NCBI RefSeq assembly: GCF_041295575.1
Contig: NZ_CP160452.1
Location: 1,984,001 to 2,048,000, forward strand
Length of the DNA stretch: 64,000 nucleotides
Reading direction: 5' to 3'
Origin: Sporosarcina pasteurii
GTDB taxonomy: Bacteria; Bacillota; Bacilli; Bacillales_A; Planococcaceae
In this document: one piece after another, positions 22,908 to 60,034 of the stretch
Numbering within the stretch: position 1 is the first letter of the stretch
Layout: each line of letters opens with the position of its first letter
Position numbers and translations under genes: made by a program
The notes under the pieces: model-generated
What the model was told of the DNA's origin: nothing
Databases searched by the model: none
Seen by the model: only the letters and a program-made list of their open reading frames with translations

Positions 22908-23528
22908 ATGACAAAGATTTCAAAAAGACAAGAAGCCATCATGGATTTCATTAAATCCGAAGTAAATCAAAAAGGGTATCCACCTTCTGTAAGAGAAATT
23001 GGCGCTGCAGTTGGATTAGCTTCTAGCTCAACTGTTCACGGGCATTTAGCACGCTTAGAAAGCAAAGGCTATATTAGACGTGATCCAACAAAACCACGTG
23101 CAATTGAAGTTTTAGATCCTGAAGGTCTAGAAGCGATTAAGCCGGGCGTTTTGCATGTTCCACTTATCGGAAAAGTTACAGCTGGACAACCGATTACAGC
23201 AATTGAAAATATTGAAGAATACTTTCCTTTACCTGAGTCATTCGGAACAAACGAAGATAATCTGTTCATGTTAGAAATTGTTGGCGATAGTATGATTGAA
23301 GCGGGTATTTTAAATGGCGATTACGTTGTTGTAAAACAAAAGAGTACGGCGGATAACGGTGAAATCGTTGTTGCCATGACCGAAGAAGAAGAAGCAACTG
23401 TTAAAAGATTTTTCAAAGAGAAAAATTACTTCAGACTTCAACCAGAAAACGCTTCGATGGACCCAATTATCGTCGACAACGTGTCCATTTTAGGTAAAGT
23501 AGTCGGCGTTTACAGAACGATTCATTAA
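22908..23528 (+). CDS. lexA: LexA repressor
   Basis: Master repressor of the SOS response. ATG 22908 ([12 protein letters not shown]) matches the known Bacillus LexA start; a GTG at 22899 would add three residues. 206 aa: winged HTH (~1-65, [31 protein letters not shown] region), self-cleavage site Ala-Gly in KVTAGQPI (~92), catalytic Ser in [10 protein letters not shown] (~128) and Lys in YVVVKQ (~166). Divergent from yneA; self-regulated through the boxes at 22793-22858. Confidence 0.97.
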
Positions 23529-23572
23529 TCACCTAAAATAGTGTATGTGCCGTCTCAATTAAATAGCACCAC

Positions 23573-23611
23573 AAAAAAGAGTTTAGGATATTCACCCTAA
23601 ACTCTTTTTTT
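23573..23611 (+). terminator. Terminator of lexA
   Basis: Near-perfect 15-bp stem aaaaaagagtttagg / cctaaactctttttt, suited to both strands. Confidence 0.9.
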
Positions 23612-23674
23612 AATCGCTAACTTTTTCATGATCTCGTGTCGCATCTACCCGGCGGTTTCAGCTTTTCTTGTGAT

Positions 23675-23788
23675 CCAGCTTCAGGCGTCAGATGCTCGGG
23701 TCATAAGTAAACTGACTATGTGGCAAAGATCGCCACGTCGTCAGTTTAGCTTATGCCTGTCGCATCTAATCGACGCCTTCAGCTTTTC
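23675..23788. repeat. Long palindromic intergenic repeat, element 1
   Basis: About 114 bases folding into one long imperfect hairpin: outer arms cagcttcaggcg / cgccttcagc, middle arms gtcataagtaaactgac / gtcagtttagcttatgcc, inner arms gtggc / gccac. It abuts a second copy in direct orientation; both copies are preceded by cagcttttcttgtgatccag. It lies between the lexA terminator and the ynbB stop. Confidence 0.8.
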
Positions 23789-23909
23789 TTGTGATCCAGC
23801 TTCAGGTGCCAGCCCTTCGAGTCGCTTCAACCCGCCAGTCAAAGTCAAAAAGCGACTTTGGCTGGCGGGTCTCCAGCGCTTGTCAGGGCTAACCGGCACC
23901 TTCAGCTTT
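23789..23909. repeat. Long palindromic intergenic repeat, element 2
   Basis: Same ends as element 1 (ccagcttcagg ... ccttcagcttttc) but a different interior: arms acccgccagtcaaagtc / gactttggctggcgggt with a short A-rich loop, flanked by gccagccctt / agggctaaccggc. The last bases run into the ynbB stop codon. Confidence 0.8.
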
Positions 23910-25167
23910 TCATGATCAATCCTTCTTTGATTAGTTTTTCTGTTGAGGAAAGAACGGCTGCTTTTACGTGTTCGTATGTTAGGCCACCTTGTACGTATGC
24001 AGTGTATGGCGGTCTAATTGGGCCGTCTGCTGTTAGTTCAATGCTTGAACCTTGGATGAATGTTCCTGCTGCCATAATGACATCATCTGTGTAGCCCGGC
24101 ATTTCCGATGGAACCGGTGCAAAATGAGCATTGATTGGGGAGTTTTCTTGAATCGTCTGGCAAAAAGCAATCATTTGTTCAGCATTCGCAAAGGACACCG
24201 ATTGAATCAAATCTGTTCGTTCGGTCGTATAATGTGGTGTTGTCACAAGTCCATAGCTATCTAATAGCGCAGCCGTGAAAATTGCACCTTTGACTGCTTG
24301 ACTGACGATATGTGGTGCTAGGAAAAAGCCTTGGTACATTTCAAGCAATGTATCTAATGAAGCACCCGCCTCTGCTCCTAATCCAGGAGAAGTCATTCGA
24401 TTCGCACATAACTCAACAAGCGCTTCTTTCCCTGCAATATATCCGCCTGTTCTTACAAGTCCGCCGCCCGGATTTTTAATTAAAGAGCCCGCCATTAAAT
24501 CAACGCCAACTTCAGTAGGTTCTAGTTCTTCAACAAATTCTCCGTAGCAATTGTCGACGAATACAATCACGTCAGGCGCTATCGCTTTTACTTTCTCGAC
24601 CATTTCCTTAATTTCGCGGACCATAAAAGATGGCCGATCCGAATAACCTTTAGAACGTTGAATCCCAATTACTTTCGTTTTGTCGTGAATGTTTTTTTCA
24701 ACTTCTTCAAAATCCACAGAACCATCTTCTAATAAGTCGATATGTTTGTATGTAATGCCGTAGTCAGCAAGTGACCCAGTATCTTTGCCATTACCACTCA
24801 CAATAGAGTCAAGCGTATCGTAAGGTTTTCCAGTAATATATAATAACTCATCACCTGGGCGTAATACGCCAAATAAACTGATGGAAATGGCATGCGTTCC
24901 AGAGATGATTTGGTTACGTACGAGACAGCTTTCTGCACCAAAAGTTTCCGCATACACTCGCTCTAATACGTCACGTCCTTCATCATCATAGCCATACCCT
25001 GTTGATCCAGTTAAATGGAAATCACTAACACGGTTATTGCGAAATGCTGCCAGGACCTTTTTTTGATTTGCATATGAAATTCGTTCAATCTGTTTGAAAT
25101 AAGGCGTGAGTTTTTCTTCAATTCCCTCTACTTTATTAGTTAAATTTAATTCTTCATTTAGATCCAT
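23902..25167 (-). CDS. ynbB: YnbB, PLP-dependent 'aluminium resistance' / methionine gamma-lyase-like protein
   Basis: 421 residues, fold-type I PLP enzyme related to cystathionine lyases. PLP landmarks: DNCYGEFVEE (~205-214) and the Schiff-base Lys in GSLIKNPGGGL (~236). The substrate has not been established for the family; 'aluminium resistance' is a historical label. ATG 25167. The final Lys-Ser-stop codons fall inside the border of palindromic element 2. Single-gene unit, convergent with lexA. Confidence 0.88.
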   Translation of the reverse strand: MDLNEELNLTNKVEGIEEKLTPYFKQIERISYANQKKVLAAFRNNRVSDFHLTGSTGYGYDDEGRDVLERVYAETFGAESCLVRNQIISGTHAISISLFGVLRPGDELLYITGKPYDTLDSIVSGNGKDTGSLADYGITYKHIDLLEDGSVDFEEVEKNIHDKTKVIGIQRSKGYSDRPSFMVREIKEMVEKVKAIAPDVIVFVDNCYGEFVEELEPTEVGVDLMAGSLIKNPGGGLVRTGGYIAGKEALVELCANRMTSPGLGAEAGASLDTLLEMYQGFFLAPHIVSQAVKGAIFTAALLDSYGLVTTPHYTTERTDLIQSVSFANAEQMIAFCQTIQENSPINAHFAPVPSEMPGYTDDVIMAAGTFIQGSSIELTADGPIRPPYTAYVQGGLTYEHVKAAVLSSTEKLIKEGLIMKS

Positions 25168-51199: not shown

Positions 51200-52760
51200 C
51201 GTGATTGTCACCTTCTTTCAATATGACTTCATCATCAACGGTGACCATTTCATCTTTTGAATGACCTGCCATAAGAAGTCCAAGCTCTTGCTCATCCGTC
51301 TCATTTTGATTGACGACATCGATAATTTGTCCATCATAAATCACTGCAATGCGATCTGATACATTCATGATTTCATCGAGTTCAAAAGAAATTAATAAGA
51401 CCGCTTTTCCTCTATCGCGCTGTTCTATTAATCTTTTATGAATAAATTCAATGGCACCAACGTCCAATCCACGTGTTGGAAGCGCAGCAATAAGCAGCTC
51501 CGGGTCACGATCAATTTCGCGGCCAATAATTAATTTTTGTTGATTACCTCCAGATAATGAACGTGCTAAAGCATGTTCACCTTGGGTCCGCACGTCATAC
51601 GCTTCAATTAGTTCGCGCGCTTTTTTAGAAATCAGTTTAAAATCCATAATTCCTTTTTTGGAAATCGGTTTTTGATAATACGTTTGTAATACAGCGTTAT
51701 AACCAACTGTAAAATCTAACACAAGTCCGTGCTTATGCCTATCTTGTGGAATATGTCCAATTCCTGTTTCCGTAATTTCTCGAGGTTTTTTATTCGTCAC
51801 ATTTTCATTGTTTATCGTAATGTTACCGCTCTTCACTTTTTGAAGACCAGTAATGGCTTCGATTAACTCGGATTGGCCATTGCCATCAATGCCGGCAAGC
51901 CCTACAATTTCACCACGTCTAACAGACAGATTTAGCTTTTTCACTTTCTCGATGCCTCGAGCATCTTCTACGACAAGTTCTTCAATTTTCAATACTTCAT
52001 CTTTTGGATTGGCAGGTACTTTTTCAGTTTTAAAAGAAACTTGACGCCCCACCATTAATGTCGCTAATTCTTCAGGATTCGTTTCAGACGTGTTAACCGT
52101 ACCAATACCTTCTCCTTTTCGAATGACCGTCACCCGATCAGAGACATCCATAATTTCTTGCAATTTATGGGTAATGATAATTATAGATTTGTCTTCCTCA
52201 ATGAGCTTCTTCATTATTTGAATTAACTCACTAATTTCCTGAGGGGTTAACGATGCTGTCGGCTCATCAAAAATTAAAATTTCAGCCCCACGATATAGCG
52301 TTTTTAGTATCTCAACACGTTGTTGCATACCAACTGAAATATCTTCTATTTTTGCATAAGGATCGACATTTAACCCATATAACTTAGAGATTTCTTCTAC
52401 TTTTTTAGCGGCCCCAACAATGTCAATGACGCCTCTTTTTTTCGGTTCATTTCCTAAAATAATATTTTCTGTCACCGTAAAGTTTTCAACGAGCATAAAG
52501 TGCTGATGCACCATTCCTATCCCTAAATTATTAGCGATATTTGGGTTAGAGATATTGACTTTTTTTCCGTGGACACGGATTTCTCCAGCTTCAGGTTGAT
52601 ATAGGCCGAAAAGAATATTCATTAAGGTAGATTTCCCTGCGCCATTTTCACCTAGTAATGCGTGAATCTCACCTTTTTTTAATTGCAAATTAATGTTATT
52701 ATTTGCAACGAATTTTCCAAATTCTTTTCGAATGCCTAGCATTTCTATTACATACTCCAA
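51189..52760 (-). CDS. nupO: Nucleoside ABC transporter ATPase NupO-type
   Basis: 523 aa, two fused ATPase domains. TTG 52760 (MEYVIEMLGIRKEFG) is 8 bases after GGGAG; a GTG nine bases upstream lies inside the ribosome site. Domain 1: Walker A GENGAGKSTLM (~38-48), Walker B EILIFDEPTA. Domain 2: GIDGNGQSELIEA (degenerate Walker A) and signature LSGGNQQKLIIGRE, then LLIALPTRGLDVGA, where the usual Walker B Glu-Pro is replaced, as is common in this group. Same layout as YufO/NupO and sugar RbsA-type ATPases. Confidence 0.92.
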   Translation of the reverse strand: MEYVIEMLGIRKEFGKFVANNNINLQLKKGEIHALLGENGAGKSTLMNILFGLYQPEAGEIRVHGKKVNISNPNIANNLGIGMVHQHFMLVENFTVTENIILGNEPKKRGVIDIVGAAKKVEEISKLYGLNVDPYAKIEDISVGMQQRVEILKTLYRGAEILIFDEPTASLTPQEISELIQIMKKLIEEDKSIIIITHKLQEIMDVSDRVTVIRKGEGIGTVNTSETNPEELATLMVGRQVSFKTEKVPANPKDEVLKIEELVVEDARGIEKVKKLNLSVRRGEIVGLAGIDGNGQSELIEAITGLQKVKSGNITINNENVTNKKPREITETGIGHIPQDRHKHGLVLDFTVGYNAVLQTYYQKPISKKGIMDFKLISKKARELIEAYDVRTQGEHALARSLSGGNQQKLIIGREIDRDPELLIAALPTRGLDVGAIEFIHKRLIEQRDRGKAVLLISFELDEIMNVSDRIAVIYDGQIIDVVNQNETDEQELGLLMAGHSKDEMVTVDDEVILKEGDNHDVK

Positions 52761-57516: not shown

Positions 57517-57600
57517 GTTCCTCCTCCTTTCGCATCTTTATTTCTTTAAGATTGGGTATATCACTATATAGTTGATTTTCGTTCCGGGCGGACGCTTTTC

Positions 57601-57712
57601 CAGCTTCAGGCGCTAGCCTCTCGGGACACTTCAGACTTTCCAAAAAGGCAAAAGCGCCTTTTGTGGGAAGTCTTCCAGTGCCTGTCGAGGCTAAGCGAAC
57701 GCCTTCAGCTTT
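57601..57712. repeat. Long palindromic intergenic repeat, element 3
   Basis: Third copy of the 23.7-kb element: cagcttcaggcg ... cgccttcagcttt ends, middle arms acttcagactttcc / ggaagtcttccagt and ggcgctagcctc / gaggctaagcg, central aaggcaaaagcgcctt. Located directly upstream of spoIIIE. Confidence 0.8.
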
Positions 57713-57823
57713 CAGTATTTCCTTAGGGCTGGCGGTGAGCCAATCGCAAAACGCAGATTGCGATTTGCCGTATTTTTGCGGTTTTCTCAGAAATTACGGC
57801 ATCCTGTTGGATATTCCTGGCTC

Positions 57824-59766: not shown

Positions 59767-59909
59767 TTTTTTTCCTCCTAATTCTACTTCCCGGCCAGTT
59801 CAGCTATTTTTCATTATACGTGACGAATCGTTTTGGTACAAATATAAAAGTTGAAGAATGTGGTCATTTTATTTTATGTATTTTTAGAATAAAGCGAGAT
59901 TATTCACTA

Positions 59910-59997
59910 CAAGCATAAGTTGACCTCTCGACGTGGCGAACTTTGCCACATAGACAGTTTGCTTATGACTCGAGCGGTTGCCACCCGAAGCTAGACA
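59910..59997 (-). repeat. Long palindromic intergenic repeat, element 4 (inverted, partial)
   Basis: Read on the minus strand it begins tgtctagcttcggg and contains gtcataagcaaactg, then tatgtggcaaagttcgccac, matching the interior of element 1 (23695-23755) at most positions. The outer closing arm is lost. Lies between dapA and rnjB. Confidence 0.8.
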
Positions 59998-60000
59998 ACA

Positions 60001-60034
60001 AAAAAAGCCGGTCTCATTTTTAACCGGCTTTTCC
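60001..60034 (-). terminator. Terminator of dapA
   Basis: 8-bp stem aaagccgg / ccggcttt with TTTTTT exit on the minus strand. Confidence 0.85.

Follow-up and report, generated by a model that had tools for sequence, protein, structure and literature searches.

Two hairpin-forming units stand side by side between lexA and a gene labelled ynbB in Sporosarcina pasteurii, and the locus raises the question of what such units are and how they came to lie there in a row. The window analysed is a 64,000-nucleotide stretch (G000:C1:1984001-2048000) of the 3,298,318-base single contig that makes up this genome (G000). The adjoining pair, described in a first-pass annotation from the letters alone, is recovered by a covariance model of the unit (R1) as two strong matches (Table 1). 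Their interiors are unlike and pairing is intact in both. The z values of single-strand DNA folding against 200 dinucleotide shuffles are given for the + strand in Table 1 and are −6.9 and −6.6 for units 1 and 2 on the − strand.

Table 1. Positions of lexA–ynbB locus features and further units in the window, and of Bacillaceae-1 matches in other loci
Feature	Position	Strand	Evidence and remarks
lexA	22908..23528	+	Left neighbour, points toward element; ORF; NCBIfam TIGR00498 lexA 255 bits, cut-off 111
Inverted repeat with A-run and T-run	23573..23610		15-nt perfect inverted repeat
Remnant: unit 3′ end and spacer (TGTCGCATCTACCC...CAGCTTTTCTTGTGAT)	~23637..23674	+	Sequence by eye; direct repeat D1/D2
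Unit 1, CATAAG type	23675..23786	+	R1 126.2 bits; fold z −9.0
Inter-unit spacer TCTTGTGAT	23787..23795	+	Letters identical to the end of the remnant
Unit 2, CGCTTC type	23796..23909	+	R1 100.6 bits; fold z −8.5
Right neighbour (ynbB in the first-pass annotation)	23902..25167	−	ORF; NCBIfam: weak PLP-lyase family matches only
Unit 3, ACACTTC type	57600..57712	+	R1 91.6 bits; nested in another repeat (GTTCCGGGCGGACGCTTTT ... GGGCTGGCGGTGAGCC)
Unit 4, 3′-truncated	59891..59994	−	R1 51.2 bits; sequence
Terminator-like hairpin AAGCCGGTT..ACCGGCTT with T-run	60001..60030	−	Sequence
RF01690 (Bacillaceae-1) matches	L025:1362-1428, L183:542-608, L186:513-579, L226:472-538, L290:3710-3776		Locus coordinates

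The lexA–ynbB locus and the repeat family

A third, partial copy, absent from the first-pass list, lies directly upstream of unit 1 and retains the 3′ end only. The inverted repeat between lexA and this remnant is likely the lexA terminator. A terminator scan of positions 23400-24100 (5 or more pairs in the stem, 3-8 bases in the loop and 5 or more T among the 8 bases behind) called no site, and it is strict, since it misses even this likely terminator. Unit 2 contains the stop codon (23902-23904) of the right neighbour. A 95-codon frame spans the array and, on inspection, neither its length nor its frame is conserved across subtypes.

Elsewhere in the window, the motif CCAGCTTCAGG has four exact matches, of which that at 52585 is by eye free of any surrounding element and is taken as chance. 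Unit 3 falls in the left part of a larger repeat (GTTCCGGGCGGACGCTT..CCGTGGGGCGGGCGGTGAGCCAATCGC..) at window positions 57575-57760, which also holds a unit in its left part at L017, L021 and L028 and into which the unit may have inserted. Unit 4 is preceded on its own strand by a hairpin with a T-run and then by TGTTGT.

The family is dispersed, as the first-pass annotation had supposed. Model R1 gave 48 matches in the own genome at E ≤ 0.01 (E-values that are rough, by the search tool's own note), two of them opposite-strand readings of places already counted; the reading of the own-genome copies left out four of the 48, namely these two, one partial match and the weakest. Further copies are present in 36 of 61 genomes of relatives and, at the level of the order, in 178 of 250 genomes and 16 of 19 genera, where up to 15 candidates per genome were scored and a count of 15 means at least 15. 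Model R2 matched 58 of 398 genomes (32 of 146 genera) in the class, and the matching genomes among the 299 of the phylum, three in all, lie within that class. A pattern scan of named genomes found at least 118 stretches, 80 of them listed (77 of these 80 loci were left out of a later count). The carriers among the matches listed are Sporosarcina, Planococcus, Planomicrobium, Jeotgalibacillus, Bhargavaea, Filibacter, Neobacillus, Peribacillus, Mesobacillus, Cytobacillus, Metabacillus, Sutcliffiella, Gottfriedia, Rossellomorea, Litchfieldia and Bacillus species, including Bacillus infantis, which bears out the statement of the first-pass annotation that similar sequences occur in many Bacillaceae. 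A record titled Arthrobacter beigongshangensis (L250, NZ_JADHDX010000008.1) also carries the element; the taxonomy lists a Sporosarcina beigongshangi, so the name on this record may be in error or out of date. A blastn search of plasmids and phages with one unit gave no match, and a single query says little for so variable a family. The unit is without a covering Rfam family and without a paper naming it in the literature searched, and a prior description in subscription papers, which lay outside that search, is possible.

Fold and covariation of the unit

The unit comprises ∼113 bases and is followed by a spacer of 5-10 bases, giving an array period near 120 bases. The whole element is one long hairpin followed by TTTT. 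The hairpin is made up of an outer stem AGC..GCT, two six-base stems that vary freely and have a fixed bulge, a conserved core CTCGRGTCATAAG..CTTATGCYTGTCG and one fixed G·T pair. The core, the ends and the G·T pair (109 of 113 copies) are near-invariant. The ends themselves (CYAGC..GCTTTTC) are short imperfect inverted repeats; about ten imperfect terminal bases are conserved and the inner stem is free. Both outer stems use all four Watson–Crick pairs at most positions.

The first-pass annotation had also claimed that pairing is kept while the interior sequence varies, and this was assessed in two alignments. The first, of 12 own copies and not fitted to the model, gave 40 pairs in RNAalifold, 26 of them with two-sided change. 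The second contained 114 copies (113 distinct) from the own and related genomes. The covariation score of the 113 distinct copies was 0.554, compared with a mean of 0.173 (sd 0.005) for 500 shuffled alignments, all of which it exceeded, and at most 0.113 for slid versions; two-sided changes occurred in 35 of the 40 pairs. Paired cells made up 92.0% of the 114-copy alignment against 70.7% after shuffling, and 945 cells against 261 showed two-sided change. Because this second alignment was fitted to the model, the counts made on it lean toward the model. The claimed conservation of pairing is well above chance, and neither outcome that the first-pass annotation had named as refuting, a lack of further copies or of covariation, was observed.

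The order in which the arms change was read from copies of differing divergence. Below 6% divergence one-sided changes dominate (5 and 27 against two-sided 2 and 5 in A2; 7 and 8 against 0 and 0 in A3), whereas at 15-18% two-sided changes dominate (347 versus 101 in A2; 241 versus 178 in A3). The idea that an arm is copied from its partner in a single step was therefore rejected, and the arms change stepwise. A two-step correction and selection would leave the same pattern in these counts and cannot be told apart by them.

Insertion sites, arrays and gain or loss of units

The 155 arrays analysed comprise 97 single, 39 double and 15 triple units, three arrays of four and one of five; in the 58 arrays of two to five units all units point in one direction. 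The sequence to the left of the arrays was compared with the right side read in reverse and with random positions, using 152 arrays (three with repeated left contexts were left out). A T-run lies 5-18 bases to the left in 92 of 152 arrays, compared with 26 of 152 on the right and 207 of 1276 at random, and a hairpin of at least six pairs abuts the T-run in 25 of 152 on the left, 6 of 152 on the right and 18 of 1276 at random. The enrichment of T-run and hairpin is thus confined to the left side, and unit 4 provides an example within the window. A motif of the element's own 3′ end also occurs at the left of 75 of the 152 arrays and at the right of 8, so that remnants are one-sided; left copies are 5′-truncated. 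Neither T-run nor 3′-end motif was found at the left of 49 of the 152, and with about a third of sites lacking the T-run the target rule is incomplete.

The genomic settings are those in which terminators and short spacers are expected. Half of the genes that run toward the element from the right (15 of 30, from mechanical ORFs and with some loci orthologous) end within 9 bases of it, nine loci adjoin the 3′ end of 23S, and the fabG–acpP gap contains matches in 34 of 68 genus genomes, all in one direction, some of them fragments and many orthologous (61 of the 68 genomes were parsed at this gap, seven were not, and the match search covered all 68). The + strand lies on the G-rich strand in a ratio of 64:32, counted after removal of shared flanks (112 of 155 arrays kept), exclusion of three more and omission of |skew| < 0.03; a lagging-strand bias was nevertheless rejected because this ratio is confounded with gene direction.

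Orthologous sites differ by whole units, and the units are accordingly mobile, as the first-pass annotation had suggested in speaking of mobile units. The lexA–ynbB order occurs in the genus, where 68 of 68 genomes match the query, but only two of the 28 parsed (28 of 30 loci; two left out) have a match between the genes, namely G000 and G081, where the unit is degenerate (27.7 bits). Between G000 and G081 site 1662558 reads remnant plus one unit versus remnant, site 2968718 remnant plus two units versus remnant, and site 1300884 a remnant with units A and B versus units B and C; site 2603032 has two units in G000, one in G081 and none in G268, and sites 2546110, 2126636 and 2759952 are present in both G000 and G081. 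Filled and empty sites also coexist within single genomes, in the spacers between 23S and 5S (one of 22 loci was excluded, its 23S end being unreadable). Six of seven readable spacers of G018 are empty and read AACTACTTTTTATAATAGG, and the seventh reads AACTACTTTTT, 122 bases, ATAATAGG, the insert being exactly one array period placed inside the T-run behind a hairpin. In G178 two of six spacers are filled, with 118-119 extra bases, and in G075 seven of eight hold two to three units and one a remnant only.

In G081, the closest relative, a further gene-like open stretch accompanies the degenerate unit between lexA and ynbB (L096), and in other relatives (L110, L105, L119) the same space is filled by another tandem repeat family (GCCATTACAGTTTCCGC / GCCATGACAGTTCGG).

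We tentatively favour, at a little under an even chance, the explanation that each unit is a copy of a mobile DNA element, non-coding and non-autonomous, whose recognition would depend on its fold, in the simplest case that of a single DNA strand, and which would insert into T-rich sequence immediately behind a different hairpin, typically that of an intrinsic terminator. As the unit itself ends in a hairpin and TTTT, every insertion would rebuild the target, and later units would thereby land head to tail and form arrays; these would then grow or shrink by recombination, with deletions leaving 3′ remnants at the left. A dedicated enzyme would presumably carry out the insertion. Not every array need arise by such re-targeting, since rows whose units are all alike (five in L177) or alternate (ABABA in L180), and likewise L182, show block duplication, which would explain many arrays without it; both processes would then act.

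The strongest competitor, although an unlikely one, is a classical MITE, in which a DDE transposase would read duplex inverted-repeat ends and leave a target duplication of 5-10 bases, pairing being a by-product. Such an element would have terminal inverted repeats of 15-30 bases in common with a full-length transposon; the unit has the roughly ten conserved end bases described above. The inverted-repeat ends of the unit are in keeping with this reading, as is the likeness between spacer and right flank, which share 4.68 of 7 letters against 3.53 (sd 0.13) by chance in 57 arrays and which match over long stretches in individual arrays (L059, L066). That likeness fits either a short target duplication or a tail borne by the element. 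In the G018 pair, the cleanest available, the repeat at the junction is at most TTTT.A, and any target duplication there would be no longer than that. Moreover, the stem adjacent to the ends changes all its letters while pairing stays, which binding to duplex sequence would not maintain, and the G·T mispair and the bulges are fixed. According to the relevant passage of one source, bacterial MITEs are non-coding intergenic elements of 70-300 bases that fold as RNA or DNA and bear traits of mobility (PMC3733652). Elements such as bcr1 of B. cereus, RUP, NEMIS and ERIC share these traits with the present one, which has no coding capacity, falls within 70-300 bases and occurs in many dispersed copies, but which differs in the free, pairing-conserving letters of its end-adjacent stem and in its hairpin and T-run target. 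The element may yet prove identical with one of bcr1-bcr18 or with Bhal-1 of B. halodurans, which is given as 74 bases where it is described (PMC2267715).

Pairing chemistry and candidate mobilising systems

The first-pass annotation had left a choice between mobile units and structured RNAs, and the mobile, non-coding part of that proposal is borne out by unit gain and loss and by the filled and empty sites. The RNA part, that transcripts of the units have a function (in mRNA processing, stability or protein binding) for which the units are kept, mobility being secondary, is weakened and now appears quite unlikely. The pairs were counted in reliably paired columns of non-redundant sets of 81 and 100 copies (2645 and 3300 cells). 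On the + strand G·T occurs in 24 and 36 cells and A·C in 48 and 68, so that the pairs are almost purely Watson–Crick, with G·T at ∼1% and A·C at ∼2%. In the stems of 95 tRNAs from the same loci G·T accounts for 150 of 2031 pairs (7.4%); tRNA A·C is zero by the program's construction and hence only G·T is comparable. Stems kept as RNA on the + strand should favour G·T, and its rarity relative to A·C makes the stems of the unit unlike RNA-selected ones. On the − strand G·T exceeds A·C by 2:1, which leaves room for an RNA role of that strand, although G·T is still only ∼2%. Covariation of the kind expected of a structured RNA is therefore accompanied by little tolerance of G·U (∼1-2% versus 7.4% in tRNA). 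The units also have no constant sense, the + strand being the sense strand at acpP and the − strand behind 23S, and the orientations of neighbouring genes are mixed (23 ++, 19 −−, 12 −+ and 11 +− in 65 arrays). The matches in half of the genus genomes at fabG–acpP, in one direction throughout, argue for an RNA role.

So does the overlap with an Rfam family. A scan of the window at the gathering score gave 0 matches, with Bacillaceae-1 (RF01690) absent from both of the lexA–ynbB units, and in eight further loci no family covers the unit itself, only RF01690 and a tRNA scoring above gathering. The RF01690 matches fall in five of these eight loci, inside or overlapping units and always opposite the element's + strand (Table 1). 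On the + strand the two loops of the RNA have the sequence CAGGA(T/C/A)G, or one close to it, on covarying stems, and we take these loops to resemble the CsrB repeat. Bacillaceae-1 appears in the table of a 2010 survey as a certain RNA of Bacillaceae (PMC2864571). It shares that host group with the element but, at 67 positions and with two small hairpins, covers the apical insert and not the unit.

The possibility that there is no dedicated mobility, the units being old repeats that spread solely through homologous recombination and duplication, is highly improbable. Block-duplicated arrays and unit loss between direct repeats would be its natural products, but single units occur throughout the genome at sites unrelated to one another, G018 has rRNA spacers both with and without a unit, and the adjacent units at the lexA locus belong to different subtypes.

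The idea of the first-pass annotation that an IS200- or RAYT-type transposase mobilises the units is not supported, and a REP-like element moved by a RAYT or another Y1 transposase retains very little probability. Y1 enzymes in general recognise hairpins and insert without long duplication, which fits the present sites, and 51 of the 68 genus genomes contain Y1_Tnp (PF01797). However, the 17 that lack it include G031, which has 47 element matches, and two genomes in a single contig, G189 and G114, which have at least 15 each, and both Y1_Tnp copies of the own genome have in-frame stops. REP/REPIN sequences with RAYT resemble the element in being intergenic, palindromic, dispersed, non-coding and often clustered. 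In the relevant passage of one source REP palindromes have 20-40 bases and are tagged at one end with GTAG or CGTC (PMC3733652). The element has ∼113 bases, one hairpin per unit, a strictly head-to-tail arrangement and no Y1 association, and such a four-base tag was not seen, on informal inspection, in a unit that ends as given above.

Retrotransposition into terminators of a small RNA ending in a hairpin and U-run is equally improbable: the position behind hairpin and T-run sites and the 5′ truncation of left copies would suit it, but reverse transcriptase (PF00078, RVT_1), found in 47 of 68 genus genomes, is absent from 21, including G031 (47 matches), single-contig G150 (at least 15) and G178 (11), and the pairing is not RNA-like. 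Group IIC introns, for which insertion at intrinsic terminator motifs is described (PMC4424553, PMC10190682), share the target of a hairpin with a T-run but, unlike the 113-base element, contain a ribozyme and a reverse transcriptase. G031 thus carries neither enzyme, and both were dismissed as required partners because their presence does not follow element number; an enzyme since lost is possible. Integron attC sites, which are recognised as a folded strand, are likewise imperfect palindromes with bulges in head-to-tail arrays, but the element has no conserved R boxes, its stem letters varying, and no cassettes; identity with an attC-like site was rejected by eye because the would-be R-box letters vary.

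A further-reaching form of the explanation that we favour, insertion of a folded strand behind hairpins, is possible but doubtful. The units would then represent structure-addressed mobile DNA of a new kind, in which the folded strand is read, the address is any hairpin with a T-run, an intrinsic terminator above all, and is rebuilt by the element at its own end, so that terminators serve as landing strips and arrays propagate themselves. Selection would act only on the fold and a few fixed unpaired positions, freeing the stem letters to drift, and the Bacillaceae-1 'RNA' would not be an RNA gene in its own right but a passenger or a module of these elements. This would supply a name and a rule of movement for an intergenic element that is among the commonest without annotation in Bacillales-type genomes, would explain the rows of hairpins behind terminators, in 23S–5S spacers and in front of acpP, and would turn an Rfam RNA family into a component of mobile DNA. 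It would also offer a system for measuring selection on fold apart from selection on letters, and the enzyme, if one were found, might turn out to be a hairpin-directed recombinase of a new type.

Two further structures were seen to the left of units. L083 and L058 have, 60 bases to the left of the unit, an element 3′ end that follows its own reverse complement, the two forming a short, near-perfect terminator-like hairpin, as if the end had folded back and been copied. Many Bacillaceae units (L287, L269, L266, L270, L283, L278, L257 and L261) have a common left context, ATAAGAAAGTATAAAATTTTGTACTTTG..TGT, which is perhaps a further element or a promoter.
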